Positions 7,561 to 56,738 of a stretch of 64,000 nucleotides of DNA are shown here, one piece after another. The stretch is from Methanosarcina acetivorans C2A (GTDB lineage: Archaea > Halobacteriota > Methanosarcinia > Methanosarcinales > Methanosarcinaceae): positions 2,666,001 through 2,730,000 of the forward strand of contig NC_003552.1 in the NCBI RefSeq assembly GCF_000007345.1, read 5' to 3'. Below the pieces are notes generated by a model. It worked only from the letters and a program-made list of their open reading frames with translations. It ran no database searches and had not been told where the DNA came from. Position numbers and translations under genes: made by a program. Position 1 is the stretch's first letter. Each line of letters opens with the position of its first letter.

Positions 7561-7866
7561 CTGTGGAACGTGGGAAACTGCTCATCGATGTTAAGAGAAA
7601 CCTCCAAGCGGTGGACCCGCAAGGACAAAAGTATCGATGCGATGAACAGGGGCAGAACAATTCGTAGTAGTGATGAAGTGCCTGTAATGGGCATGGAGCG
7701 AAGGGATTGTATTATCCAGTTTTGAACTGCGGTCAACCTTGTCTTCAAGGGAGGAACCAATGGACAAAACAAGGCTTTATGGCTGGATAATGGGAGCCGT
7801 ATGAATCGAGAGATTCACGTACGGATCTGAGAGGGCCTGGGGGTGAAATTCCCCTGGGCTACTTAC
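7560..7866 (+). mobile_element. Group II intron remnant lacking its reverse transcriptase
   Basis: The segment carries intron-like sequence such as GAACAGGGGCAGAACAA and ATGGAGCGAAGGG, which in complete elements flank the 5' end of the reverse transcriptase frame. A domain V hairpin follows at 7794-7828 (GAGCCGTATG, loop, CACGTACGGATCT), with the catalytic AGC and the loop closed by complementary arms. A domain VI-like hairpin, GGGGGTGAAATTCCCC, and a CTACTTACC end near 7866 come next. Almost the whole protein frame is deleted. The 5' boundary is uncertain. Confidence 0.65.
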
Positions 7867-7884
7867 CAATACCCTGACCTTTAG

Positions 7885-7981
7885 AGGCTGTCCGACAATT
7901 ATTGATAAAGAAAGCAAATAAGCCCTTTAAATCAAAAAAGAAGGAATTCTTTTATTACCGAAGGTAATTGTCGGACAGCCT
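7885..7981. mobile_element. 97-bp MITE
   Basis: The element starts AGGCTGTCCGACAATTA and ends with the exact complement, TAATTGTCGGACAGCCT, over 17 bases. A non-coding interior of about 60 bases separates the ends. Size, perfect ends and lack of a coding frame fit a miniature inverted-repeat element mobilised by an IS transposase in trans. No clear flanking duplication was found. Confidence 0.7.
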
Positions 7982-8027
7982 GTTTAGGGTGGGGTGGCCG
8001 CACGCAATTTGATTTCCTGCAGAGTTT

Positions 8028-8228
8028 AGGGTTGCGGTAATATGCAGCGTATCAACCTCCATGACCCTTTTCAGGGGAGGGCCTGAAGACGTTGAAAAGG
8101 AAGCTTTTCCCTGCATGGAAAGCGGAGTGGATATTCTTGCTCCGGGCTGCGGGCTTGCTCCAGAAACCCCTCTGAAAAACCTGAAAGCCCTTGTGGAAGC
8201 GAGAAACGAATTTTGCAGGAGAAGGTGA
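8028..8228 (+). pseudogene. 3' fragment of an MtaA/MtbA-type methyltransferase (copy 1)
   Basis: An open frame of 66 residues (RVAVICSVSTSMTLFRGGPE, later ILAPGCGLAPETPLKNLK, then TGA) matches the last fifth of the methyltransferase at 4598-5632. It keeps the distal zinc-ligand Cys but lacks the catalytic barrel and the HxC pair, so it cannot work. The same fragment recurs at 32556-32825. The 5' break lies just right of the MITE and intron remnant. Confidence 0.8.
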
Positions 8229-8384
8229 ATTTTGCTGAAGAAAATGAGTTTACGGAGAAGCAGTGAAAAATACCCAGAGAGTCAAAAATGAGATACGGTT
8301 TCAGGGCAGGGGTTTTTCGGTTTATTTCAGGCTGACCACACAAAAATCAAGCTTTTCTGGAAGATTTCCCCTGCTTATCAGGGC

Positions 8385-8984
8385 TCAATGAAGAGCCTCT
8401 GCCATTTTTTTACCCGCTTCAAACGTTTTTCTTAGAAGTTCTTCATCCCTTGAAACCGCTCCCCTATCAAAATATCCTGTCACCGGAAACTTTTCCACGA
8501 TCTCATAGCCCAGGGCTTCAAGAGGCATCCCTAGCGCTCCGAGTGTAAAACCCATTTCTTCGATTTCCAGCTGCTCGCAGACCGAAAAAACAATCGCTTT
8601 TCTCCCCTGCCCGGCAAGTTTGCTCGAATAGCGCCTGGGGCGGACGTTCGTGAAATTGTAGTAAGGGTAGAGCCTGTCGATGAAGGCCTTCATCAGGGCA
8701 GTTACATTGTAGTTGTAGGTGGGAGAACCGAGGGTAAGCCCTTTTGCAGCCTCGATCTCGGGATAAAGCAGGCTCATTCCATCATGGAACCTGGTGCAGG
8801 TCCCGGTTTTCCGACACCTTTCGCAGCCGATACAGGGCTCGATCGAATAATCCCTTAAAAGGACTTTTTTCGTTTCGACACCTGCCGATTCCGCTCCTTT
8901 CAAAAAACTGTCAAGCAGCACGTCGGTATTTCCATTTTTCCGGGGGCTTCCTCCAACTCCAAGAATTTTTATATCGTTAATCAT
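8385..8984 (-). CDS. Iron-sulfur flavoprotein / NADPH-dependent FMN reductase family (copy 1)
   Basis: This 199-residue flavodoxin-fold protein has the FMN phosphate loop GGSPRKNGNTDVLL near residues 11-24 and the compact cysteine motif CIGCERCRKTGTC near residues 51-63. That motif is the CX2CX2CX5C pattern binding the 4Fe-4S cluster in Methanosarcina Isf-type proteins. Such proteins are cytoplasmic electron carriers, thought to help with oxygen or peroxide defence. A close paralogue lies at 32983-33579. The first 70 residues differ at roughly 15 positions, but the last 130 at only about four, which suggests gene conversion. The gene is monocistronic here. Confidence 0.85.
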   Translation of the reverse strand: MINDIKILGVGGSPRKNGNTDVLLDSFLKGAESAGVETKKVLLRDYSIEPCIGCERCRKTGTCTRFHDGMSLLYPEIEAAKGLTLGSPTYNYNVTALMKAFIDRLYPYYNFTNVRPRRYSSKLAGQGRKAIVFSVCEQLEIEEMGFTLGALGMPLEALGYEIVEKFPVTGYFDRGAVSRDEELLRKTFEAGKKMAEALH

Positions 8985-9196
8985 CTCACCCTGTATTGTA
9001 TCGGGGATGGAGAATTAAATAGGTTCCGAAAACATGTCCCTGCTTTTTTGTAATAACCCGGAATGGAAATTCCCCTGATCTTAATCTCAGAGCTGAGAAA
9101 AAGCACCCGAGAAAAAGCTGAAACAACCCCGTAAGTAAAACTTATAGTTGCAGAGGCTGTTTAGATACAAAAGGTTAAAAGACTTTAAGCCTAAGT

Positions 9197-9415
9197 TTGT
9201 TTTCAGGGGTTAAAAAAATGGAAGATGCACTTCTCACTATTTTTCGGTTGAGGCTGTTCGAAACCCTCCGCGTTATAGGTGCTTTGATCCTCACTGGCAT
9301 GACCCTCGGAGTACTTGAGCATCGGGCTAATTTTTATGTCCAGAGCGTCTTTGGCACTAAAGCATCCATTTCACATTTTTTCTCTTTTCTACAGATGCGG
9401 TATGTAGTATATTGA
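9197..9415 (+). pseudogene. Truncated M50-like membrane protease gene (copy 1)
   Basis: The first 55 residues (MFSGVKKMEDALLTIFRLRL through NFYVQSVFGTK) match the intact protein at 35395-36213. Just before the HEAGH zinc motif the frame turns into unrelated sequence (ASISHFFSFLQMRYVVY) and stops. Upstream DNA also matches the intact copy, including CTGTTTAGATACAAAAGGTT. The piece is the broken end of the duplicated block and has no active site. The glycan cluster begins about 420 bases downstream. Confidence 0.8.
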
Positions 9416-9837
9416 GTTAAATTTTACTCTCAAGTTTCTGGCTGATTGAAATAAATTTCTTAAACTCCGGAAGAGCCTGCGGCATGTAACTGTGGATATT
9501 TTGTGCTCTTATGATATCGTTTTTCTCGGATTCATTTTATTATTTTGAGTTTATATATTTTTTCACTCCTGTATTTCATATGTTTTTGCAGGCCAGTATT
9601 TCAACAATATAACGTTATATTCATCAAACATAAAGCGTTACTGCTCTTGTTATTGTACACTTTTTATTTATTTCAGAATATCTCTCAATAAATTTATATA
9701 CTGTTTTCATGAATTACATTATAAAAATTTAAAATACGTTTAAAGGTTCAAACGGTTGTACTCCAATACTTTTGATTGACTTTTGAGCCATTATAATTGT
9801 TTCAATTTAATATTATAAATTTAAAAGGAGTTTAAAA
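9416..9837 (+). promoter_or_regulatory. Gene-free leader of the glycan cluster
   Basis: This is the A/T-rich junction between the duplicated block and the first glycosyltransferase. A TATA-like AATTTATATACTG lies at about 9691-9703, and a strong ribosome site, AAAGGAG, at about 9824-9830 precedes the TTG start at 9838. No open frame shows a family. A long leader of this kind could carry regulation, but none is recognisable. Confidence 0.4.
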
Positions 9838-10806
9838 TTGAGTAACGAACTGATTGTGGGCAATAATACTCAGTACCAGGGCCATATAGAGAACCCACAT
9901 TTCAGGGAGGTGTCATCTCAAAATATAACTGTCATCCTTCCAGCTTTTAACGAGGAAGTCTCCATCGGCAGCATAGTCCTTCTTACTAAATTCTATTCCG
10001 ACAACGTAATCGTAGTCGATGACGGGAGCTCTGACCGCACTGCCGAAATCTCCAGGAAAGCAGGAGCTCACGTGATTGTGCATGAGGTCAATAAAGGCAA
10101 AGGAGCAGCCCTCAAAACCGGTTTTGAAGCCGCAGCCAACCTTGGCGCCGATATAATAGTGACAATGGACTCGGACGGTCAGCATAATCCCGCTGAAATT
10201 CCCAAACTTGTAACCCCTATTATTGACGGCTACGCTGAAATGGTCAATGGGAGTCGTTACCTTTCCCACAAAGACAAAAACACTCCTATCTACCGCCGTG
10301 TCGGCCAGACAATCCTTGATACGGCTACAAATATGAACTCCGGTCTCAGGATCACCGATTCACAAAGCGGTTTCCGCGCTTTTGCCGCTTCTACTAAAAA
10401 CGTGTTCCGCTTCGGTGCACATGGCATGGCAATAGAAAGCGAAATGCTTGCTGATGCAGGCAGGTCTGGACTGCGGATCAAGGAAGTCGAAATAGGGGTA
10501 AGGTATGATGTGGACTGTTCAACCATAAGCCCGGTCCAACATGGTTTAGGCGTCCTTGTCATGGTCTTGAAAGATATCGAGTTCAACAAGCCTCTTTATT
10601 ACTTTACAGTCCCAGGCCTATCTCTGGGAGTTGGAGGACTCTACATGGGTGCCCATTTTCTGCAAAACTTCACTATGGGAGGAGGCCTATCCTTCGGGCC
10701 TACCATGCTTATGGTTCTGTTTATTGTTATAGGGACCTTCATGGCATTGACAGGGATAATGCTGCATTCGGTGTCGGCGGTTATGAGGGAATCGAAGGTG
10801 ACTTAA
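9838..10806 (+). CDS. Family 2 polyprenyl-phosphate glycosyltransferase (dolichol-phosphate sugar synthase type)
   Basis: The 322-residue protein has a GT2 domain with ITVILPAFNEEVSIGSIVLL, the nucleotide-sugar motif VVDDGSSDRT and the metal motif TMDSDGQHNPAEIPKL. After the catalytic domain come two membrane spans, around residues 256-280 and 290-315. This is the plan of DPM1/AglJ-like enzymes that load a sugar onto a lipid carrier at the cytoplasmic membrane face. It opens the glycan cluster, so it may start or feed lipid-linked oligosaccharide assembly. TTG is the start, backed by AAAGGAG. Its codon use is less A/T-biased than the following genes. Confidence 0.85.
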   Translation: MSNELIVGNNTQYQGHIENPHFREVSSQNITVILPAFNEEVSIGSIVLLTKFYSDNVIVVDDGSSDRTAEISRKAGAHVIVHEVNKGKGAALKTGFEAAANLGADIIVTMDSDGQHNPAEIPKLVTPIIDGYAEMVNGSRYLSHKDKNTPIYRRVGQTILDTATNMNSGLRITDSQSGFRAFAASTKNVFRFGAHGMAIESEMLADAGRSGLRIKEVEIGVRYDVDCSTISPVQHGLGVLVMVLKDIEFNKPLYYFTVPGLSLGVGGLYMGAHFLQNFTMGGGLSFGPTMLMVLFIVIGTFMALTGIMLHSVSAVMRESKVT

Positions 10807-41282: not shown

Positions 41283-42830
41283 TCATCTGAGCTTGAATCT
41301 GGACCCGAGCCCTTTCATAAAACCACTGGAATTGCTGCCTGAATCCGGTACCTGGACTTTTGCTTCAATTTTTGATGCATGGGGGTCGGAAGTATCTGAA
41401 TATCCTGGTTTTGCAGGCCTGAGCTCTCCAGACCTGAATTCTTTGTGCTGCAAGCCCAGCAGGGTTTTGATTTCGCCGATCAGGGTTTCTGTTCCGGAAA
41501 GCTGTGTGCTTCCTGCGTCGTGCAGGAGCAGGGCTTCGTTTCTGTCAGGGGTTGAAAGCCAGATGTTTGAATCCATAAGATTTCTGAGCAGTTCCTTTTC
41601 TTCCTCAAGCCGCTGTTTTACTCGATTTACTCTTCCAGCCAGGGTTTCGAATTCTTTTTCAAAAACCGCTCTCTGACTTTGAGACAGGGTATTTTTCTTC
41701 CCTGAACGTTCATGGAGAGAATCAATTTCCCTTACCAGGTTCTCATAAGGATAGATCCTCGAATTTCCTTCCTGCTTCAGAGTATAGCTGTGGTTCGGGC
41801 AGGCAGTATGGTGCAGCTCCAGTTTATCTCTAAGCTGGAATTCTTCCCCGCAACTGTCGCAGATGATTCCAACGGGAAGCTCGTTTTTCAGGGCGATACT
41901 GAGTGCCGTTTTCAGGTCTTCCGCATCAAGGCGGAGTTTTTCGGTGTTTGTCCCGCCGGATACTACGAGTTTGAAAACTGTTTTTCGGATGGTTTCCCGC
42001 TCTTCGGGCAAGTTCCAGAGCATGTGCTGGAGCAAAAGGATCATTGTCCTGTCAACAGCCGGACAGCCGCTGCTGCAGGCTGCAACCTTCAGGACCTGAA
42101 CAATTCTTTTCCAGCGCCGGTCCGAGATTTCTATTTCCTGCAGCTGGAGGTTTTTCCGGAGTTCCGTGATTATAACTTCAACATCAGGGTCAACAGGCAG
42201 GGAGTTTGAGCTTCTGCGAAGCTTTTCGATTTCTGAAACCTGAATGCTTGCAGCAGGCCTGAAGTCCTCAGGTGCTCTGAAAAGGAGATTTTTGAAGTTT
42301 TCATCATTCTGGATATAGGAGAGCCTGTACCTGAACAGGAAACGGTCATAAAGTGCTTCTAAACTTTCGTCTTCTTCCGGAAGCTCGTTCGAAGCCCCGA
42401 AGACCGAAAGCAGAGGGACATCGACTATCTCCCTCCCATTATGGTATTTTCTTTCGTTCAGTATGGTCAGGAGACTGTTGAGGATAGCACTGCTTGCCTT
42501 AAAAATCTCGTCCAGCAAAGCAATATGGGCCGTCGGGAGGCAGCCGTTGATGTTTCTCCTGAACTCGTCTTCTTCAAGGGCTTTTAAAGAAAGAGGCCCG
42601 AAGATCTCTTCGGGGGTTGAAAAGCTTGTTAAAAGGTAATTAAAAAAGTTCCCGCCTTCAATTGTCTGGCAAATGCTTCTGGCAAGCTGGGTCTTGGCTG
42701 TGCCGGGGGGGCCCAGAAAGAGCAGGTTTTCTCCTGAAAGGACAGCAAGGAGGGAGCCGTTTATTTCGGCTTCGCGTTCTTTGAAGTAGTCTGCAAATTC
42801 CGATTTGATTTCGAGGAGAGTTTCTTTCAG
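41283..42830 (-). CDS. MoxR/RavA-type AAA+ ATPase
   Basis: The protein is about 515 residues. Walker A is FLGPPGTAKTQLARSIC near residues 31-47 and Walker B is HIALLDEIFKASSAILNSLL near residue 103, followed by the sensor-type GASNELPEEDESLEALYDRF and an arginine-finger region. A coiled C-terminal part holds a small zinc-finger-like segment (CDSCGEEFQLRDKLELHHTA). The frame contains no ATG, GTG or TTG before Walker B. A CTG at 42828-42830, seven bases behind GGGAGG, gives the expected N-terminus LKETLLEIKSEFADYF. The VWA partner follows in the same operon. Confidence 0.82.
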   Translation of the reverse strand: MKETLLEIKSEFADYFKEREAEINGSLLAVLSGENLLFLGPPGTAKTQLARSICQTIEGGNFFNYLLTSFSTPEEIFGPLSLKALEEDEFRRNINGCLPTAHIALLDEIFKASSAILNSLLTILNERKYHNGREIVDVPLLSVFGASNELPEEDESLEALYDRFLFRYRLSYIQNDENFKNLLFRAPEDFRPAASIQVSEIEKLRRSSNSLPVDPDVEVIITELRKNLQLQEIEISDRRWKRIVQVLKVAACSSGCPAVDRTMILLLQHMLWNLPEERETIRKTVFKLVVSGGTNTEKLRLDAEDLKTALSIALKNELPVGIICDSCGEEFQLRDKLELHHTACPNHSYTLKQEGNSRIYPYENLVREIDSLHERSGKKNTLSQSQRAVFEKEFETLAGRVNRVKQRLEEEKELLRNLMDSNIWLSTPDRNEALLLHDAGSTQLSGTETLIGEIKTLLGLQHKEFRSGELRPAKPGYSDTSDPHASKIEAKVQVPDSGSNSSGFMKGLGSRFKLR

Positions 42831-43171: not shown

Positions 43172-43945
43172 TTACTGGTAGATATTTCCTGATTTTATAC
43201 CATGTTTCTTCCTTTCTTTCAGCCTGTAACTTTCTCCTCTGATGTTAATTGTAGTACAGTGATGGAGAATTCTATCAAGTACAGCAGCCGCTATTACCTG
43301 GTCTTTGAATATCTCTCCCCATTCTCCATATGATTTATTTGACGTAAAGATGGTCGAACTCTTTTCATAACGTCTGGAAATCAACTGAAATAAACAGTGA
43401 GCTCCTTCCTCATCAAATGGGAGATAACCCATTTCATCAATGATCAGAACTTTAAATTTCATAAAGCCTTTGAGTTTCTTTTCAAGCATTCCTTCTCGAT
43501 TTGCTATTTTCAACTTCTCGATAAGGTTTCCTGTATTGGTAAAGTAAACCGAAATCCCTGCTTTTGCTACTTCAATCCCAAGAGCGATTGCAAGATGAGA
43601 CTTTCCAACTCCGGGAGGACCAAGGAAAACAACGTTTTCTACGTTATGAACAAATCTCAACGTTGCAAGGTCTTCTATGACTTTTTTATCAATAGATGAC
43701 TGAAACTCAAAATCGAATTCATCAAGCGTCTTTTTCACAGGAAATGCTGCACTTTTCATCCTTCTCTCAATTGCAGCAGCTTCTCTGTGCTTCTTTTCCT
43801 GTTCAAACAGATAATCAAGTACTTCCATTGTTGTCTTGCTATCTCTTGCAGCAATTTCAAGATAGTTGTCCAGAACCTCTTCAATAGTATTCAGTTTGAG
43901 GTATTGCAGGTTACTGTGAAGTCTCTCATAGCTGAAATTGTTCAT
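43172..43945 (-). CDS. istB: IS21-type transposition helper ATPase IstB
   Basis: The 257-residue DnaC-like AAA+ protein has Walker A in NVVFLGPPGVGKSHLAIALG and Walker B in KVLIIDEMGYLPFDEEGAHC. STIFTSNKSYGEWGEIFKDQ follows as sensor 1. IstB assembles on target DNA and stimulates the IstA transposase. Length is typical. Its ATG overlaps the istA stop by four bases (ATGA), so it is translationally coupled to istA. Confidence 0.93.
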   Translation of the reverse strand: MNNFSYERLHSNLQYLKLNTIEEVLDNYLEIAARDSKTTMEVLDYLFEQEKKHREAAAIERRMKSAAFPVKKTLDEFDFEFQSSIDKKVIEDLATLRFVHNVENVVFLGPPGVGKSHLAIALGIEVAKAGISVYFTNTGNLIEKLKIANREGMLEKKLKGFMKFKVLIIDEMGYLPFDEEGAHCLFQLISRRYEKSSTIFTSNKSYGEWGEIFKDQVIAAAVLDRILHHCTTINIRGESYRLKERKKHGIKSGNIYQ

Positions 43946-45186
43946 TCAAAATCACCGTCACTGAATGTTTCATAGATGTCAAGAGACCTCTTTTCAACTT
44001 CAGGACCTGAGAACTTCAACGGAATCTGTAATTCTTTCTTGCATTTTGAATTCTCTTTAAGAATCTCACTCAGGAGGCCCTGAAAATGTTCCTTTTTTCT
44101 GGAAACCCTACAATTACCTGAAAGAATTTCATGTTCACAAACCTTCTCATAATCAACATAGACCTCGAATATTCCTTCAAAAATCTGAAGCTCTGCAGTT
44201 CTTCCTGCAAACCTGTAAGGAACAGAATACTTATTTCCAAGGAACGAAATATAACAGTCTCTGGAGACCTTTCTGGTCTCCTTATGGACAACTTTGTAAG
44301 GAGGAACCTGATCCAGAGGGATCAGTTTCTCCTCCTTAAAACGTTCAAGGGGGATTTGATAGGTTGTTCCGTGGACAGTTGAATTTACCCTTTCCAACCA
44401 ACTGTGAACTTGGGCGTTCAGGTCTTCGAGAGAGGTAAATCGTCTTCCAAGGAAGAAATCCCTCTTGACATAGCCTACCGTATTTTCAATTTTACCTTTT
44501 GTCTGAGGCCTGTAAGGCCTGCATAACCGTGGAATAAAACCAAAGCATTTGAAGAAATCCTCAAACTGTGAGTTCCATTCAGAATCTGATGATTTTAAGG
44601 CTCTTTTGATAACAACCTGTTTCATGTTATCATAGAGAATCTCCTGTGTAAATCCTCCAAAGTACTCAAAGGCGTTCAGATGACACTGGATAAGAGTGGA
44701 AGTGTCTATGCCCAGTGTAAATTCAACATATTTCATCCTGGAATATCCAAGAATCATGTTGAAGCAAAAGAGTTTCTTTATCTTTCCATCAACCTCAACT
44801 GTTCCCATCTCTGCCCAGTCAACCTGAGCCTGTACACCTGGTTTTGTTTCATAGCGGAATACAGCAGGGACTCCCTGCTGAGGTCGGACTTCTCTTACAA
44901 AGTCCTTGACGATGGTCATTCCTCCATCAAAACCCATTTCTTTGATTTCCCGATAGAGCCGAGCAGTAGTGTAGGAGCCTTCTTCAAGCTTTTTGAGTAT
45001 ATAAGGTTTATATGGATCAAGCTTGCTCTTTCTTCCGGGACGTTTCTGGGGTTCAGGTAAGGTTTTCAGCTGGAGATATTTCCTCACAGTTTTCCTGTCA
45101 AAACCGGTTTGTCTGGCGATTTCACTAATGCTCAAGTTTTGTGAACTTAAATCTCGAATCAAGAATAAATCCTCCTTTTTCAGCAT
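43942..45186 (-). CDS. istA: IS21-type transposase IstA
   Basis: The 414-residue DDE transposase has an N-terminal helix-turn-helix (LSISEIARQTGFDRKTVRKY) and the first catalytic Asp in QAQVDWAEMGTVEVDGKIKK. The second Asp is in ILYDNMKQVVIKRAL and the Glu in PQTKGKIENTVGYVKRDFFL. The C-terminal beta domain is complete. No stops or frameshifts are present, so the element should be active. ATG 45186 lies 89 bases inside the right end. Confidence 0.93.
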   Translation of the reverse strand: MLKKEDLFLIRDLSSQNLSISEIARQTGFDRKTVRKYLQLKTLPEPQKRPGRKSKLDPYKPYILKKLEEGSYTTARLYREIKEMGFDGGMTIVKDFVREVRPQQGVPAVFRYETKPGVQAQVDWAEMGTVEVDGKIKKLFCFNMILGYSRMKYVEFTLGIDTSTLIQCHLNAFEYFGGFTQEILYDNMKQVVIKRALKSSDSEWNSQFEDFFKCFGFIPRLCRPYRPQTKGKIENTVGYVKRDFFLGRRFTSLEDLNAQVHSWLERVNSTVHGTTYQIPLERFKEEKLIPLDQVPPYKVVHKETRKVSRDCYISFLGNKYSVPYRFAGRTAELQIFEGIFEVYVDYEKVCEHEILSGNCRVSRKKEHFQGLLSEILKENSKCKKELQIPLKFSGPEVEKRSLDIYETFSDGDFE

Positions 45187-45452: not shown

Positions 45453-47051
45453 TTATTTAGCTACTTCTTCTTTTTCTTCTTCAATATAGTTTCTCATATC
45501 CTCGACTTCTTTGTCATAATCGTCCTGATTTAACAGGTTATGCACTGAGTTGTATTCCGTAAAAGTACTGGAGATCAAATCCAACTTTTCCAGGAGCAGG
45601 TCATTACCATAGATAGTATCTGCAATCTCCAGATATCTCTCTTCATACATTGCACTGAAATTCTCATTTGCGAAGAAGCGGGTTTTTAAGGTGTTTTCCC
45701 CATTCTGTGAATTTCCTCTTTCTCCTCTGTTAACCCCTCCCTGCTCAAAGTTTCCATTTAGCTCTCCCATCCCGGGAACATTCCCAAAGTTACTCATATT
45801 ATTTTGGGGCATTCCAGGGCCTTCAAAACCGTCGGTAATATTGCCGAAGTTGTCCATATTATCCTGAGGCTTCCCGAAATTGCCCATATTTTCAGGTCCT
45901 GTAAAGTTTTCCATGTTTCCTGGAGCTGCCGGGGGTGTGAAATTGCCCATGTTTTCAAAATCAGGAGCTTGCTGCATTCCTTCGGGGCCGCTTCTCATTG
46001 TCCTGTTTTCCCCTCCTTCAATATTCTCAAATGCGCCTCCCCTTTGCATATTTCCCTGTCCCATCATTGCACCGAATGCAAGATTCATGTCCCACGCCAG
46101 AATTATGAATTTCTCGGTTTCAGGGTTGTAGTAGAAATAATAGTTGCTGTTCATTCCCGAAAATGAGTCCGAATTCTCAACCAGGTCATTTACTGCCATC
46201 ATTGTGATCAGGGCATCAACGTCAAGCCAGTATGGTAGCTCTTCTTCAAACTCTTCATCGCTCGATTCGCTGACAAATTTTAAAAACGAGATCAGGGGTG
46301 CAAGGTCCTCTTCGTTAACCTGTGTTTTCTGCTCAAAATCGCTCATGTATTCTGTCTGGTCATCGCCTTTGTAAGTCAGGTCGACGAAGTTTCCGGCTTT
46401 GTATAATACTCCGTCGTAGTCATTAAAGTATTTCACCAGATAACTTTCATCAATCTGTTCACAGATTACATAATAAGCGGGATCCAGATCTGAAACCGTC
46501 ACACTTGCATAGGAGCACTCCGGGACGACCGCTCCGCATATGCTGTGGGCATAAAGTGCAAGAGGCTCTTCAAGCAGGGAATCGCTGCTCCCTATACGGA
46601 CTGCAAGTTCGGTAATTCCCCGATAATTCTGTCCGTCTACATATTTGTCGAATTTTATCAAAAAAGGAAGCTGCATACTGTCGATGTATGAGCTGCCTTT
46701 GAAGGCATGCTGTAAAGTCATCTGACCTTTCAGACGAACCCCTACGTCGTCAATAGTTACGCCATCAATAACGACATCAGTTTTAAAATATTCTTTCAGA
46801 CCTGTCTCTTCGTAAGTTGCTATAAGGGATTCGTAATCTTTCCGATCCATATCAATCTGGACCTTGTGAATCATGCTGTCGTCAAAAATATCCACATTGT
46901 TTTCAATTGTAATCGTGTTGAGTTTTTCCTGATAATTTGCATCCGTGCTGTAAGGAATTATCATAGAATCTCCAAAAAAGCAGAGCAGAGAAAAAACGGA
47001 TAAAATGAAGAGCAAGATTACCCAATAATATCTCCGAAGCCGCATATCCAT
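45453..47051 (-). CDS. CotH-family (atypical kinase-like) membrane-anchored protein
   Basis: The 532-residue protein has a single N-terminal span (YWVILLFILSVFSLLCFFGD), after which it should lie outside the cell. The CotH core runs to about residue 325 and includes VGVRLKGQMTLQHAFKGSSY, NYRGITELAVRIGSSDSLLE and the metal-binding segment FIILAWDMNLAFGAMMGQG. CotH of Bacillus is a secreted protein kinase for coat proteins; the archaeal substrate is unknown. A low-complexity Asn/Gly/Met/Phe-rich stretch (NMGNF, NMDNF, NMSNFGN units, residues about 345-450) follows. It is the last gene of the VTC-DUF4956-CotH operon. Confidence 0.85.
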   Translation of the reverse strand: MDMRLRRYYWVILLFILSVFSLLCFFGDSMIIPYSTDANYQEKLNTITIENNVDIFDDSMIHKVQIDMDRKDYESLIATYEETGLKEYFKTDVVIDGVTIDDVGVRLKGQMTLQHAFKGSSYIDSMQLPFLIKFDKYVDGQNYRGITELAVRIGSSDSLLEEPLALYAHSICGAVVPECSYASVTVSDLDPAYYVICEQIDESYLVKYFNDYDGVLYKAGNFVDLTYKGDDQTEYMSDFEQKTQVNEEDLAPLISFLKFVSESSDEEFEEELPYWLDVDALITMMAVNDLVENSDSFSGMNSNYYFYYNPETEKFIILAWDMNLAFGAMMGQGNMQRGGAFENIEGGENRTMRSGPEGMQQAPDFENMGNFTPPAAPGNMENFTGPENMGNFGKPQDNMDNFGNITDGFEGPGMPQNNMSNFGNVPGMGELNGNFEQGGVNRGERGNSQNGENTLKTRFFANENFSAMYEERYLEIADTIYGNDLLLEKLDLISSTFTEYNSVHNLLNQDDYDKEVEDMRNYIEEEKEEVAK

Positions 47052-47073
47052 TTTTTCTCAACTCCAACTAATT

Positions 47074-47772
47074 TCAGAGGTCCGTTGTGTTGTATCCTGT
47101 GATTAAGAACACTTTTTGATTTCCGTTCAGTTTTTTGATGGCTTCGATAAATTCATGTTTGTTTGCTTTTTTCTTTAAAATTACACTGTACACAAGCTCC
47201 GTGCCGGTATCTGAACGGACAGAATCTATTCCTATAAGGTCTGCTGATGAGGTGTATTTGACAAATACTTTGCCAAATAATTTCTCGAAGTCTACTTCTT
47301 TGTCAAGTTGAATTTTTAAGATCTGACTTATTGCAGGTCTTGAATACCAGTCAAATTCATACATGATGAAAATCAGGGTGCCGATTATTGCTGTTGCAAT
47401 TATTGCAAGCAGGTAGAATCTTGTCCCTGTTGCCATTCCGATAGCCATTGCAAAGAAAATAAAACCTACGTCACGTGTTTCTTTAACCGCATTCCTGAAA
47501 CGAATTATTGAGAGTGCACCTACCAGGGAAAATGCTCGTGCAATATTTGAGCCGACAATCAACATAATTATGTCAACGACCAGGCCCATCATTATAAGAG
47601 TATGAACATAACTTTGAGTGTAAGATGTTCCTCTATGTGTTCTTTTATAGAGCCATCCAATTGCTGATAGTAAGATAAAAGACAGGAGCAGACCCACCAC
47701 AACATCCGTGATTGTGAATGTCCCGCTTAAATCTTCAAAAGCAAAAATGTCTTCAAGGGTTTCCAATGCCAT
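47074..47772 (-). CDS. DUF4956 membrane protein
   Basis: The protein is about 232 residues with four membrane spans in the first 140 residues (TDVVVGLLLSFILLSAIGWL; LIMMGLVVDIIMLIVG; IGMATGTRFYLLAIIATAII). It has the conserved segment LVGALSIIRFRNAVKETRDV, then a soluble alpha/beta tail. This is the DUF4956 family, known to sit beside VTC-domain and CotH genes; no function is proven. ATG 47772 lies directly behind the VTC stop, so the operon is tightly packed. An upstream TTG would overlap the VTC gene by 44 bases. Confidence 0.85.
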   Translation of the reverse strand: MALETLEDIFAFEDLSGTFTITDVVVGLLLSFILLSAIGWLYKRTHRGTSYTQSYVHTLIMMGLVVDIIMLIVGSNIARAFSLVGALSIIRFRNAVKETRDVGFIFFAMAIGMATGTRFYLLAIIATAIIGTLIFIMYEFDWYSRPAISQILKIQLDKEVDFEKLFGKVFVKYTSSADLIGIDSVRSDTGTELVYSVILKKKANKHEFIEAIKKLNGNQKVFLITGYNTTDL

Positions 47773-47773
47773 T

Positions 47774-48517
47774 TTAGTACGCCTCAATTCTTCTAGGGAA
47801 CTCTTTTTCAACTTCAAGCCCGGTACAGTACTTGCTGATTCTTACAAGCCTGTAGTTGTTCTGAGCAATTAGTTCTGTAAGCCAGAAAGGTACTCTTTCA
47901 TTGGCTTTAATTTCGAGAATAACCCTGTCAGGTGATACAATAAAGCGTCCAGGTTTTTTAGAGTTCAGATCAAGGTCGTTTATCCTGTATCTTATGTTTG
48001 AATCAAAGGTTATCCTCAGTCCAATATCGTAATCAGTTCCGACAAAAGCATGCCTGAAATAACTTGTGATCAGGGTTGGCTGCAGGTTTCTTTCCTCAAC
48101 CATTGCAAGAATTTCTTCTATGACAGGCGTATCCTCTTCGTTATGTTCTGGAATTATTCTCTCGTTGCATAGGGTCAACGAATCCTTATATTTCATTTCA
48201 ACTCTTCTTTTTTGAATAGTTTTGTCATAGCGCTGCTTGACTTCTACAAAAATGAGTGAATCCTCTGTCAGCTTTTCTTTTGTTTCATAAAAACGAATTC
48301 GTAATTTTTTTCGGAACTTAATCCCGTTGACTTTTTCCCAGTAACATTGGAGGTCCGGGCTATCATAATAGAGACTTGTGATTACATAATCACCCGATGC
48401 CCAGCTGTAAGGGTCCGGAATAAGGTAATGCTTTACTTGTTCCTTTAATTCATTTGCCTGTTTTATAGTAAGCAAATATTTTAACTCGAATCGATTGAAC
48501 TTTCGAATTAATTCCAT
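47774..48517 (-). CDS. VTC-domain protein (polyphosphate polymerase-type tunnel fold)
   Basis: The protein has about 247 residues of the VTC/TTM fold: FNRFELKYLLTIKQANELKE, the Lys/Arg-rich strands KFRKKLRIRFYE and SLIFVEVKQRYDKTIQKRRV, and the closing RVILEIKANERVPFWLTELI. In yeast Vtc4 these basic strands line a tunnel that makes polyphosphate from ATP. Whether this protein does so is untested. I chose ATG 48517 because the fold starts right there; an in-frame TTG at 48640 adds 41 residues without clear homology. First gene of the operon with DUF4956 and CotH. Confidence 0.8.
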   Translation of the reverse strand: MELIRKFNRFELKYLLTIKQANELKEQVKHYLIPDPYSWASGDYVITSLYYDSPDLQCYWEKVNGIKFRKKLRIRFYETKEKLTEDSLIFVEVKQRYDKTIQKRRVEMKYKDSLTLCNERIIPEHNEEDTPVIEEILAMVEERNLQPTLITSYFRHAFVGTDYDIGLRITFDSNIRYRINDLDLNSKKPGRFIVSPDRVILEIKANERVPFWLTELIAQNNYRLVRISKYCTGLEVEKEFPRRIEAY

Positions 48518-48939: not shown

Positions 48940-49425
48940 ATGGACCCTGAATGCAGTAGAAAAGTAAGGTTGATGAACCTTGAATTCCAGGCACTTTATA
49001 CTAAAATATTTGAAGATCGGTTTTTCCACAAAATAGCCGCCTCTCAAAACGCCGAACTCAAGGAACTTAACAAAAACCAGCCTCTAGTTATTATGTTGAT
49101 AGGAATGGTAAAGGAAATCATGCCCTCTACAATCGGGACTTATATGGGTATGGACCGGAGCAGTCTTTCGAGAATGGTGGATTCCCTGGAAGAGAAAGGA
49201 TTTGTCCGGAGAAAAAGCGATCCTGAAGACCGGAGAAAAGTCCTCGTTTCCCTAACTGAAAAAGGTGAGAGGTGCTACGAATTCCTGAATAAAATCTCTG
49301 AGGAGATGGCTGCCGAGATCCTTGGGCTGGGTGAAGAGCAGGATTTCAGGGATTTTGAAAAGAGCCTTGAAACAATGTTGAGAGTCCTGAGAAAAATCGA
49401 TTCTGCAATGGAAAGCAAAAAATGA
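48940..49425 (+). CDS. MarR-family transcriptional regulator (pair 1)
   Basis: The 161-residue winged-helix protein has AELKELNKNQPLVIMLIGMV, the recognition helix in STIGTYMGMDRSSLSRMVDS and the wing GFVRRKSDPEDRRKVLVSLT, a canonical MarR DXRXXR signature. It is probably a dimeric repressor responding to a small ligand. It is clearly paralogous to 55755-56243, and both are followed by a TrmB-like gene. ATG follows GGAGG at ideal spacing. An RND exporter lies about 800 bases downstream and may be its target. Confidence 0.9.
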   Translation: MDPECSRKVRLMNLEFQALYTKIFEDRFFHKIAASQNAELKELNKNQPLVIMLIGMVKEIMPSTIGTYMGMDRSSLSRMVDSLEEKGFVRRKSDPEDRRKVLVSLTEKGERCYEFLNKISEEMAAEILGLGEEQDFRDFEKSLETMLRVLRKIDSAMESKK

Positions 49426-49541
49426 GCTCGGGACCGGAAGCTTCGAAATAGGGTCCCCAAATGGGGCATCAATATTAACATGAGATTATATCGAACCAAT
49501 GCAAAACTTTCGTTTTTAGCTTCTTTTCATGAGGAGAAAGC

Positions 49542-49901
49542 ATGACTCTGAAACTTATTAATAACCTGCAGAAACTTGGCTTTACCGAAAACGAGGCCAA
49601 GATTTATGCTGCCCTTGTCTGTATGAAAACGGCAACTGCAAGGGAAATCTATGAAACTAGCGGAGTTCCCAGGCCCAAGGTGTACAAAGTCCTGAGGGGG
49701 ATGGAAGAGAAAGGATACGTACAGATAATTGAGGGGGAACCGATCCGTTTCAGCTGTATAAGTCCGGAGGAACTGATCACAAGGATCAGGAATGACTTTT
49801 TACTCTCTCTGAACGAAACCTTCTGCTGGCTCCATGCTTTGAACCCTGAAAGGAAACCCCTCAGCTCCGAAAAATCTGTAGAACTCGGGATGAGGTGTTA
49901 A
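49542..49901 (+). CDS. Short TrmB-like winged-helix regulator (pair 1)
   Basis: The 119-residue protein has MTLKLINNLQKLGFTENEAK, REIYETSGVPRPKVYKVLRG and MEEKGYVQIIEGEPIRFSCI, the TrmB-type winged helix. It stops soon after and lacks the C-terminal sugar-binding domain of full-length TrmB (about 340 residues). It may act as a small DNA-binding partner or antagonist of the neighbouring MarR protein. ATG follows GAGGAGAAAGC. Paralogue: 56379-56738. Confidence 0.85.
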   Translation: MTLKLINNLQKLGFTENEAKIYAALVCMKTATAREIYETSGVPRPKVYKVLRGMEEKGYVQIIEGEPIRFSCISPEELITRIRNDFLLSLNETFCWLHALNPERKPLSSEKSVELGMRC

Positions 49902-55754: not shown

Positions 55755-56243
55755 ATGATAAAGAAAATGGATGAGGCAACACTTAGTAAGATCATTCTCC
55801 TGTCAATGGAAAGGGATGCTCTCGATAACCTGATTTTTGAGCAGACCTTTCAGAAAAAAATTGCAGGCAAATTTAGGGAACTGAGCAAGAATCAGCCGTT
55901 GGTAATTAAGATCATAGGGATCGAAGGAGAAATTATGCCTTCCACGCTTGGAAAATATACCGGCCTGGAAAAGAGCAGCCTGACGAGGATGGTCGATGAT
56001 CTGGAGAAGAAAGGGATTGTGTTCCGGAAAACCGACCCTGGAGACAGGAGAAAAGTGCTTGTTTCTCTCACTGAAAAGGGGCTTGAATATTACAATTGCC
56101 TGAGCCAGATTACTACCGAAATGGCTGATGAAATCCTAGAGTTTGTTGATGACAAGGACGTTGAGGATTTTCACCGGAGCCTTGAGACGATGGTAAGAAT
56201 CCTGAGGAAAGTAGATGCCAGACGGTCTGCAAGACCAAGGTAA
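55755..56243 (+). CDS. MarR-family transcriptional regulator (pair 2)
   Basis: The 162-residue winged-helix protein is closely similar to 48940-49425. It has FRELSKNQPLVIKIIGIEGE, STLGKYTGLEKSSLTRMVDD and GIVFRKTDPGDRRKVLVSLT, with the DXRXXR wing. It is probably an autorepressor acting at the two palindromes upstream. The start MIKKMDEATLSKIILLSMER is behind AAAAAGGGATG; the second ATG at 55767 is also possible. It is followed by a TrmB-like gene, as in pair 1, but no transporter gene lies next in line. Confidence 0.9.
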   Translation: MIKKMDEATLSKIILLSMERDALDNLIFEQTFQKKIAGKFRELSKNQPLVIKIIGIEGEIMPSTLGKYTGLEKSSLTRMVDDLEKKGIVFRKTDPGDRRKVLVSLTEKGLEYYNCLSQITTEMADEILEFVDDKDVEDFHRSLETMVRILRKVDARRSARPR

Positions 56244-56378
56244 TGCGATTGGCTCAGGGGAACTCTTAGCTGTGTGAAATTATTGAGTACTGGAGCTTTC
56301 AGATGATGAAGAATATTCAGATGATAAAGAATATTGTATAGATCAGATCTTAGCACGTGAAAGATGGAGGAAACCGGA

Positions 56379-56738
56379 ATGACTCTTAGACTTATTGAGA
56401 ACCTCCAGAAACTGGGGTTTACCGGCAACGAAGCCAAAGTTTACGCGTCTCTTGTCTGCCTGAAGCAGGCAAAAGCAAGTGATATTGCCGAAAGTGCGGG
56501 AGTTCCGAGACCCAAGATCTATGGAACTCTAAGAGGGATGGAGAAAAAAGGTTACGTCAGGATAATTGAAGGCGAACCAACCCTTTTTTGCTGCGTGCAG
56601 CCCGAAGTGCTCATTTTAAGGATAAGGGCAGATTTCATGCTTTCTTTAAGTGAAACCGCCAGTGAGCTGAATTCACTATCCCCAGGGAGCAGCAACTTTG
56701 CTTCAGAAAGTTTCTATGGAGAACAGATAAGGGTCTGA
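56379..56738 (+). CDS. Short TrmB-like winged-helix regulator (pair 2)
   Basis: The 119-residue protein reads MTLRLIENLQKLGFTGNEAK, SDIAESAGVPRPKIYGTLRG and MEKKGYVRIIEGEPTLFCCV, a TrmB-type winged helix without the C-terminal ligand domain. It is paralogous to 49542-49901 over its whole length. I chose ATG 56379 behind GGAGG rather than ATG 56364, to match the paralogue. It ends with a Ser-rich tail. It lies about 135 bases after the MarR gene. Confidence 0.85.
   Translation: MTLRLIENLQKLGFTGNEAKVYASLVCLKQAKASDIAESAGVPRPKIYGTLRGMEKKGYVRIIEGEPTLFCCVQPEVLILRIRADFMLSLSETASELNSLSPGSSNFASESFYGEQIRV

Follow-up and report, generated by a model that had tools for sequence, protein, structure and literature searches.

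Accessory genes of the Pel loci of streptococci and clostridia include cotH, a polyphosphate polymerase gene, and genes for DUF4956 and DUF4832 proteins (PMC7112168), and the counterpart in Streptococcus intermedius, SIR_1592-1594, also lies beside Pel (PMC12345266). Here, we describe a trio of the same three families, encoding a VTC-domain protein, a DUF4956 membrane protein, and a CotH-fold protein, at positions 45453 to 48517 of a 64,000-nucleotide stretch of the Methanosarcina acetivorans C2A genome (contig NC_003552.1, positions 2,666,001 to 2,730,000; referred to below as the window). A further described locus is NELoc-2 of Clostridium perfringens, in which VTC-domain genes and a CotH gene stand together and, in the parts of the text examined, Pel is not mentioned (PMC2879425, PMC11677781). 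Its gene order resembles that of a Planococcus locus in our set (L091); DUF4956 is not named there, and two genes of 222 and 226 amino acids by the VTC gene are called tubulin/FtsZ GTPases (PMC2879425), which, by analogy with DUF4956 genes in size and place, may be misnamed. The trio as such is already known from Pel loci, and a locus with VTC and CotH has already been published for C. perfringens. A preliminary description of the window, made from the sequence alone, had stated that the system has no established function; this stands for biochemistry but not for genetics, homologues having already been deleted in S. intermedius (PMC12345266). A search of the open-access literature did not find a description of the archaeal form, of the near-obligate pairing of VTC with DUF4956, or of the alternation of CotH with Cthe_2159 reported here.

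The window trio and the Pel accessory cassette are alike in that the same three families are encoded together and that the membrane protein is of the MgtC plus ACT type in both. The cassette adjoins Pel synthesis genes, whereas the window trio, in the order VTC-DUF4956-CotH, lies in a genome in which PelG and DUF3492 had no match (other Pel genes were not searched); we take DUF3492 to be PelF. The source is a Methanosarcina genome of a single contig (5,751,492 bases), in agreement with the archaeal host proposed in the preliminary description. The trio also occurs in other archaea and in Nonomuraea, Planococcus, and Deinococcus, as seen in the flanks that were fetched. These results suggest that the trio is more than an appendage of Pel, contrary to the 2025 study of the streptococcal genes, whose analyses are reported to fail to find it outside Pel (PMC12345266).

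A near-obligate pair with an alternating surface partner

The three genes are transcribed from the minus strand in the order VTC (48517 to 47774), DUF4956 (likely 47772 to 47074), and CotH (47051 to 45453). Each ORF (open reading frame) is intact, the intergenic spacing is 1 nucleotide between VTC and DUF4956 and 22 nucleotides between DUF4956 and CotH, and the linkage is far above chance, which bears out the earlier claim of tight coencoding. All three products exceed the curated Pfam cutoffs (VTC, PF09359, E 2.1e-58; DUF4956, PF16316, E 4.9e-18; CotH, PF08757, E 3.2e-35), while NCBIfam held no family for any of them at E up to 0.01. The source genome has one VTC match and one DUF4956 match, and a second CotH copy at 3143512.

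We searched 392 genomes of the phylum, which were a selection from a larger group. VTC was found in 33 and DUF4956 in 33, with both in 32; the unpaired exceptions (G315 and G074) are partial matches. The association gives a Fisher P of 1e-44, which is nominal, the genomes being related. At the level of loci, we assembled 41 regions (28 archaeal and 13 bacterial), using all ORFs of at least 90 amino acids. Long regions covered 28 of the 33 archaeal VTC genomes, including the source, with G212, G315, G325, G337, and G386 known from the search tables only; bacteria were sampled through a plasmid collection, in which 23 match rows yielded 13 regions, and the ten rows left out comprised eight from Aminobacter, one from Shinella, and one that repeated a Streptomyces site already represented. 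All 41 loci hold both VTC and DUF4956, and in 40 the two genes are neighbors on the same strand; in the remaining locus (L051), DUF4956 is one gene away from VTC, with CotH in between. Of 14 named control genomes, the same three gave matches to VTC and to DUF4956; among these, CotH is present in Corynebacterium glutamicum and M. acetivorans, and Cthe_2159 in Bacteroides ihuae. The pairing of VTC and DUF4956 is near-obligate.

The exported third protein is exchangeable. CotH was found in 26 of the 392 genomes and Cthe_2159, a beta-helix protein annotated as carbohydrate-binding, in 21 (one under the cutoff). One or the other is present in all 33 VTC genomes, compared with 9 of the 359 without VTC (P values are again nominal), and, counted by genus, in 16/16 with VTC against 1/120 others; the sole genus in the latter count is that of G300, one of the nine, which has only a Cthe_2159 match that falls under the curated cutoff. 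CotH is adjacent in 14 of the 28 archaeal loci (one of them, L056, cut by a contig end) and Cthe_2159 in 9, and the five with neither next door encode CotH or Cthe_2159 elsewhere in the genome. CotH is therefore not obligatory, and the rule that every sampled VTC genome has at least one of the two partners provides a tangible starting point for work on DUF4956, a family named in only three papers of the open-access literature searched.

The nearest relatives of the window unit show this exchange. Seven loci of the Methanolobus clade (two, returned by a genome-wide scan, from Methanolobus profundi and M. vulcani, the rest sharing the genus label) all carry Cthe_2159 as the third gene, with VTC proteins 72 to 78% identical to that of the window. 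In the VTC tree, the window protein groups with these seven (8 rows, support 97/96) and then with Nonomuraea (9 rows, 92/89), whose unit carries CotH. One Methanolobus-clade genome (G130) holds an intact VTC-DUF4956-Cthe_2159 unit plus a second unit of the CotH form (L101, G130:C1:1660000-1679000, 7672-10325), in which DUF4956 is 85% and CotH 63% identical to those of the window; by sequence, these two are likely orthologs of the window proteins. Core and surface partner thus appear to evolve as separable modules.

In all 13 bacterial loci, DUF4956 adjoins VTC; five have CotH in the locus (two genes further on in L096) and one has Cthe_2159. Of the seven bacterial units that have neither CotH nor Cthe_2159 in the vicinity, four have phosphate-related neighbors. 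In Aminobacter, Nitratireductor, and Shinella, the neighbor is a gene for a phytase-like protein, which Nitratireductor combines with a phosphate transporter; in Deinococcus QL22, an acid phosphatase and a phosphonate ABC transporter are encoded at the locus. One further unit of the seven has a phospholipase-D-like gene. Two of the five CotH units sit with glycan genes, that of Planococcus (L091) beside a GT2 gene and that of Pseudobutyrivibrio in a glycosyltransferase/pyruvyltransferase cluster; two more records lack annotation. Both themes, phosphate and matrix, fit surface polyphosphate. The glycan neighbors are also what might be expected if the unit finished or anchored an exopolysaccharide, with VTC and DUF4956 supplying phosphate or polyphosphate to a glycan and CotH or the beta-helix protein acting on the polymer outside. 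The position of the trio beside Pel genes (PMC7112168, PMC12345266) and the annotation of Cthe_2159 as carbohydrate-binding are consistent with such a role. We nevertheless consider it rather unlikely for the window unit: no glycan synthase was found among the family-searched window genes around the operon, the source genome gave neither of the Pel matches sought, and no glycosyltransferase is annotated within 8 kb of the Deinococcus taeanensis trio.

Active sites and the membrane protein

The VTC protein is a predicted cytosolic polyphosphate polymerase with no hydrophobic stretch. A 26-row archaeal VTC profile matched yeast Vtc4 at E 9.5e-15, superseding the weak Vtc4 match obtained with the window protein alone against solved structures (E 0.19). 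The structural model (mean predicted local distance difference test [pLDDT] score, 75.9; best Foldseek E, 1.9e-14) is nearest to nine yeast Vtc2/3/4 entries, with Z scores of 17.5 to 21.1, in line with the polyphosphate-polymerase fold named in the preliminary description, which had also held that loss of the tunnel-lining residues would count against it. These residues are retained. R114, R116, and E243 of the window protein are equivalent to Vtc4 R264, R266, and E426, at which substitutions inactivate the yeast VTC complex (PMC9911596), and are kept in 41/41 VTC proteins; the numbering of R264 and R266 was checked, and the correspondence of E426 rests on the aligned LEVK motif. E133, K135, R196, R209, and K270 are likewise kept in 41/41, and K54 and K144 in 40/41. 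Hydrolytic tunnel enzymes have the same fold (Z about 11 to 14), and VTC might, like them, degrade triphosphate or polyphosphate; we regard this as improbable, since the best other tunnel enzyme reaches a Z of 15.4, below all nine VTC entries, and since the positions shown to matter in Vtc4 are retained.

The CotH-fold protein (45453 to 47051, 532 amino acids) has one N-terminal hydrophobic stretch (residues 5 to 23) and a Gly/Asn/Met-rich insert at about residues 329 to 455. The catalytic Asp residues, whose loss would also have spoken against the preliminary description, are present: D295 and D321 align by profile with two Asp residues of the Bacillus CotH structure 5jd9, in which the spacing of the two, counted by hand, is the same as that of D228 and D251 of B. 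subtilis CotH (23 residues), the inactivating positions of that protein (PMC7821199). The two proteins share the fold, the catalytic Asp, the Asn, and the metal-binding Asp; unlike Bacillus CotH, the window protein has its catalytic Asp and its Asn three residues further apart and is membrane-anchored, and no spore is involved. Over 19 CotH proteins (including the separate copy L053 and leaving out the L056 fragment), D295 is conserved in 18, D321 in 18, and N303 in 16, the exceptions at D295/D321 being L051 and L053. Two observations are at odds with a strict kinase reading: Ser occupies the N303 column in three CotH proteins from bacteria (L090, L091, and L092), and L051 has His in the D295 column in the multiple alignment, although Asp in a smaller one.

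The second CotH of the source genome (L053, G000:C1:3143512-3144285; 395 amino acids) has no hydrophobic stretch, and its metal-binding Asp is replaced by Gly (WG for WD); to judge from these features, it is perhaps an inactive cytosolic relative. Low-complexity stretches rich in Gly, Met, Pro, and Asn are common to many exported partners of unrelated fold. Among CotH proteins, they occur in that of the window and in those of L040 to L047, L050, L052, L058, and L060, that is, in most archaeal ones; among other proteins, they occur in Cthe_2159 of L033 to L039 and in small lipoproteins of L049, L050, and L058. The CotH proteins of L051 and L053 and of the bacterial loci L090 to L092 do not stand out in this composition.

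DUF4956 (ORF 47074 to 47817) has three strongly hydrophobic stretches by hydropathy, and a low-confidence model gives five membrane-length helices followed by a C-terminal ACT-like domain. Profile comparison with hhalign matched window-type DUF4956 to short MgtC at 96.2% probability (P 2.5e-9) over 188 columns spanning the membrane and C-terminal domains, whereas for six unrelated membrane families (3 to 10 sequences each) the probability did not exceed 0.4% with this profile, or 2.5% when all three DUF4956 profiles were considered. Weaker MgtC matches were obtained for window-type DUF4956 against long MgtC (54%), for the other DUF4956 type (62.7% and 0.5%), and for mixed alignments (86%). MgtC was matched by 10 of 24 DUF4956 members at E up to 1 (best, 0.0067), and the single window protein stays under the Pfam MgtC cutoff (17.2 of 31.4 bits). 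The C-terminal domain of the model compares with the MgtC C-terminal domain 7qa5 at a Z of 5.8, tied with many ferredoxin/ACT-like folds in what is a poor model, and Foldseek gave no match to the DUF4956 model at E 0.001 or better. Taken at the level of sequence profiles, DUF4956 is a remote MgtC relative. The assignment is not new, because the Streptococcus homologue has independently been described as a protein of four membrane segments that combines MgtC with ACT (PMC12345266). Membrane domain, ACT-like C-terminal domain, and remote sequence similarity are shared with MgtC/SapB; DUF4956 differs in being paired with VTC in nearly every genome and in carrying an S-I-x-R-x-R-like signature in place of the Gly-rich stretch of MgtC. 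In this signature, R108 is present in 41/41 proteins and R106 in 38/41, and the positive-inside rule would place it at the cytosolic end of a membrane helix. An initial aquaglyceroporin match of the window protein (E 6e-5) was dropped because a 24-row profile matched no solved structure up to E 1.

Proposed polyphosphate export and a possible regulatory alternative

We tentatively propose, as a reading that is quite possible though short of probable, that VTC and DUF4956 make up a two-protein synthase-translocase for polyphosphate. This would be a prokaryotic counterpart of yeast VTC, split into separate proteins, that delivers its chain to a surface partner. The preliminary description had suggested polymer synthesis coupled to export and then phosphorylation of surface proteins; the coupling would be plausible, whereas the phosphorylation step would not be open to units without CotH. 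In the yeast complex, basic residues line the channel on which the polymerase is seated (PMC9911596). The window unit resembles the Vtc1/3/4 complex in polymerase fold, in catalytic residues, and in having a membrane partner with basic residues; it is unlike that complex in having separate proteins as subunits and an MgtC-like membrane partner. VTC, as a cytosolic tunnel enzyme, would build polyphosphate from ATP; DUF4956 would dock VTC and pass the growing anionic chain outward, with its invariant Arg at the predicted cytosolic helix end; and the chain would meet outside a dedicated surface protein, whose gene may be part of the unit or lie at another site in the genome, namely, CotH with its kinase fold in the window genome and the beta-helix protein Cthe_2159 in the Methanolobus clade. 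This protein might anchor the chain in the matrix at the cell surface or take phosphoryl groups from it. The identity of the polymer, its export, phosphoryl transfer, and the role of the surface protein are the steps that we infer in this model. If it is true, prokaryotes have a dedicated make-and-deliver route for outside polyphosphate, unlike PPK enzymes.

A more specific version, which we consider decidedly doubtful, holds that extruded polyphosphate replaces ATP as the phosphoryl donor with which CotH modifies surface proteins or glycans, while the Cthe_2159 form would capture the chain into the matrix, perhaps together with calcium. Where the ATP for spore coat phosphorylation by CotH comes from has been called unanswered (PMC7821199). 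Polyphosphate as the donor would, if true, answer where extracellular CotH kinases obtain phosphate, and extracellular kinases could then be fed without ATP.

Several points weigh against a synthase-translocase. No SPX domain was found in the VTC protein, VTC being its sole domain at E up to 0.01, and there is no DUF202 domain among the families found, the membrane partner being DUF4956/MgtC-like instead. The DUF4956 model, on which a channel would have to be built, is poor (mean pLDDT, 65.7). The open-access literature search found no report in which the activity of a prokaryotic VTC protein had been measured. M. acetivorans already has working PPK and PPX enzymes (PMC6821655); a role of VTC in bulk polyphosphate was set aside for this reason. 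In the second unit of G130, a VTC remnant broken by stop codons lies beside intact DUF4956 and CotH, though the other VTC of that genome is intact and may act in trans. MgtC, which DUF4956 resembles, is described as a protein that acts on ATP synthase and on the regulation of phosphate, not as a channel (PMC12345266), and in S. intermedius, deletion of the VTC homologue had no reported effect on aggregation or Pel, whereas loss of the DUF4956 homologue led to more Pel and loss of the CotH homologue to less, with both reducing aggregation (PMC12345266). As reported, these deletions speak for a VTC-independent role of DUF4956 and CotH under those conditions.

The kinship with MgtC allows DUF4956 to be a regulator as well as a channel. 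It could be an MgtC-like regulator of ATP/phosphate homeostasis, with VTC as a cytosolic sensor or signal producer, CotH or Cthe_2159 as the surface output, and no export. The match to short MgtC across both the membrane and C-terminal domains, the MgtC matches of individual DUF4956 members, and the opposite Pel phenotypes in S. intermedius, with none reported for the VTC homologue, are consistent with this explanation, which we nonetheless consider somewhat unlikely: the polymerase residues of VTC are kept in 40 to 41 of the 41 proteins, beyond what would be expected of a sensor. Methanosarcina is a genus with working genetics.

Gene starts and flanking elements

The VTC ORF is open up to TTG 48640, and ATG 48517 is residue 42 of this longer frame. 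The ATG fits better as the start because residues 1 to 44 of the model have pLDDT scores below 50 and because the Methanolobus-clade ORFs of L034, L036, and L038 have their first possible start at that site. DUF4956 probably begins at ATG 47772, residue 16 of its ORF; the same site is the first possible start in 6/7 Methanolobus-clade ORFs.

Directly downstream of CotH, a pair of transposase genes on the minus strand (43172 to 45186; ORFs of 414 and 257 amino acids) marks the operon boundary and lies outside the operon. The 414-residue ORF contains rve and Mu-transpos_C_2; the 257-residue ORF is presumably the transposase helper, and the element is one that we take to be of the IS21 type. This adjoining element, the presence of the unit in only 2 of 15 sampled Methanosarcina genomes (the other one being of a distant type), and the fact that the nearest VTC within the plasmid collection is that of the actinomycete Nonomuraea raise the question of whether the unit was acquired horizontally and has no present role in the source strain. 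We find this quite improbable, given three intact genes with retained active sites and a Methanolobus-clade ortholog with the CotH and DUF4956 identities given above.

Upstream and divergent from the operon lies a MarR-family regulator gene (48940 to 49425, plus strand; Pfam MarR, E 1e-13), which, from its position, is a possible regulator of the operon. A MarR and TrmB gene pair occurs twice in the window, at 48940-49901, by the operon and an MMPL transporter gene, and at 55755-56738, about 7 kb off. A link of the TrmB regulator and MMPL transporter to VTC was considered but set aside; there were two cases only (the window and L047), and the second MarR-TrmB pair of the window is distant from the operon. 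Near the IS21-type element, an ORF for a MoxR-type ATPase (41283-42518) has a family match that starts at profile position 103, the N-terminal part being absent from the ORF. A group II intron was found at 7792-7867 of the window (Rfam, 51.5 bits).

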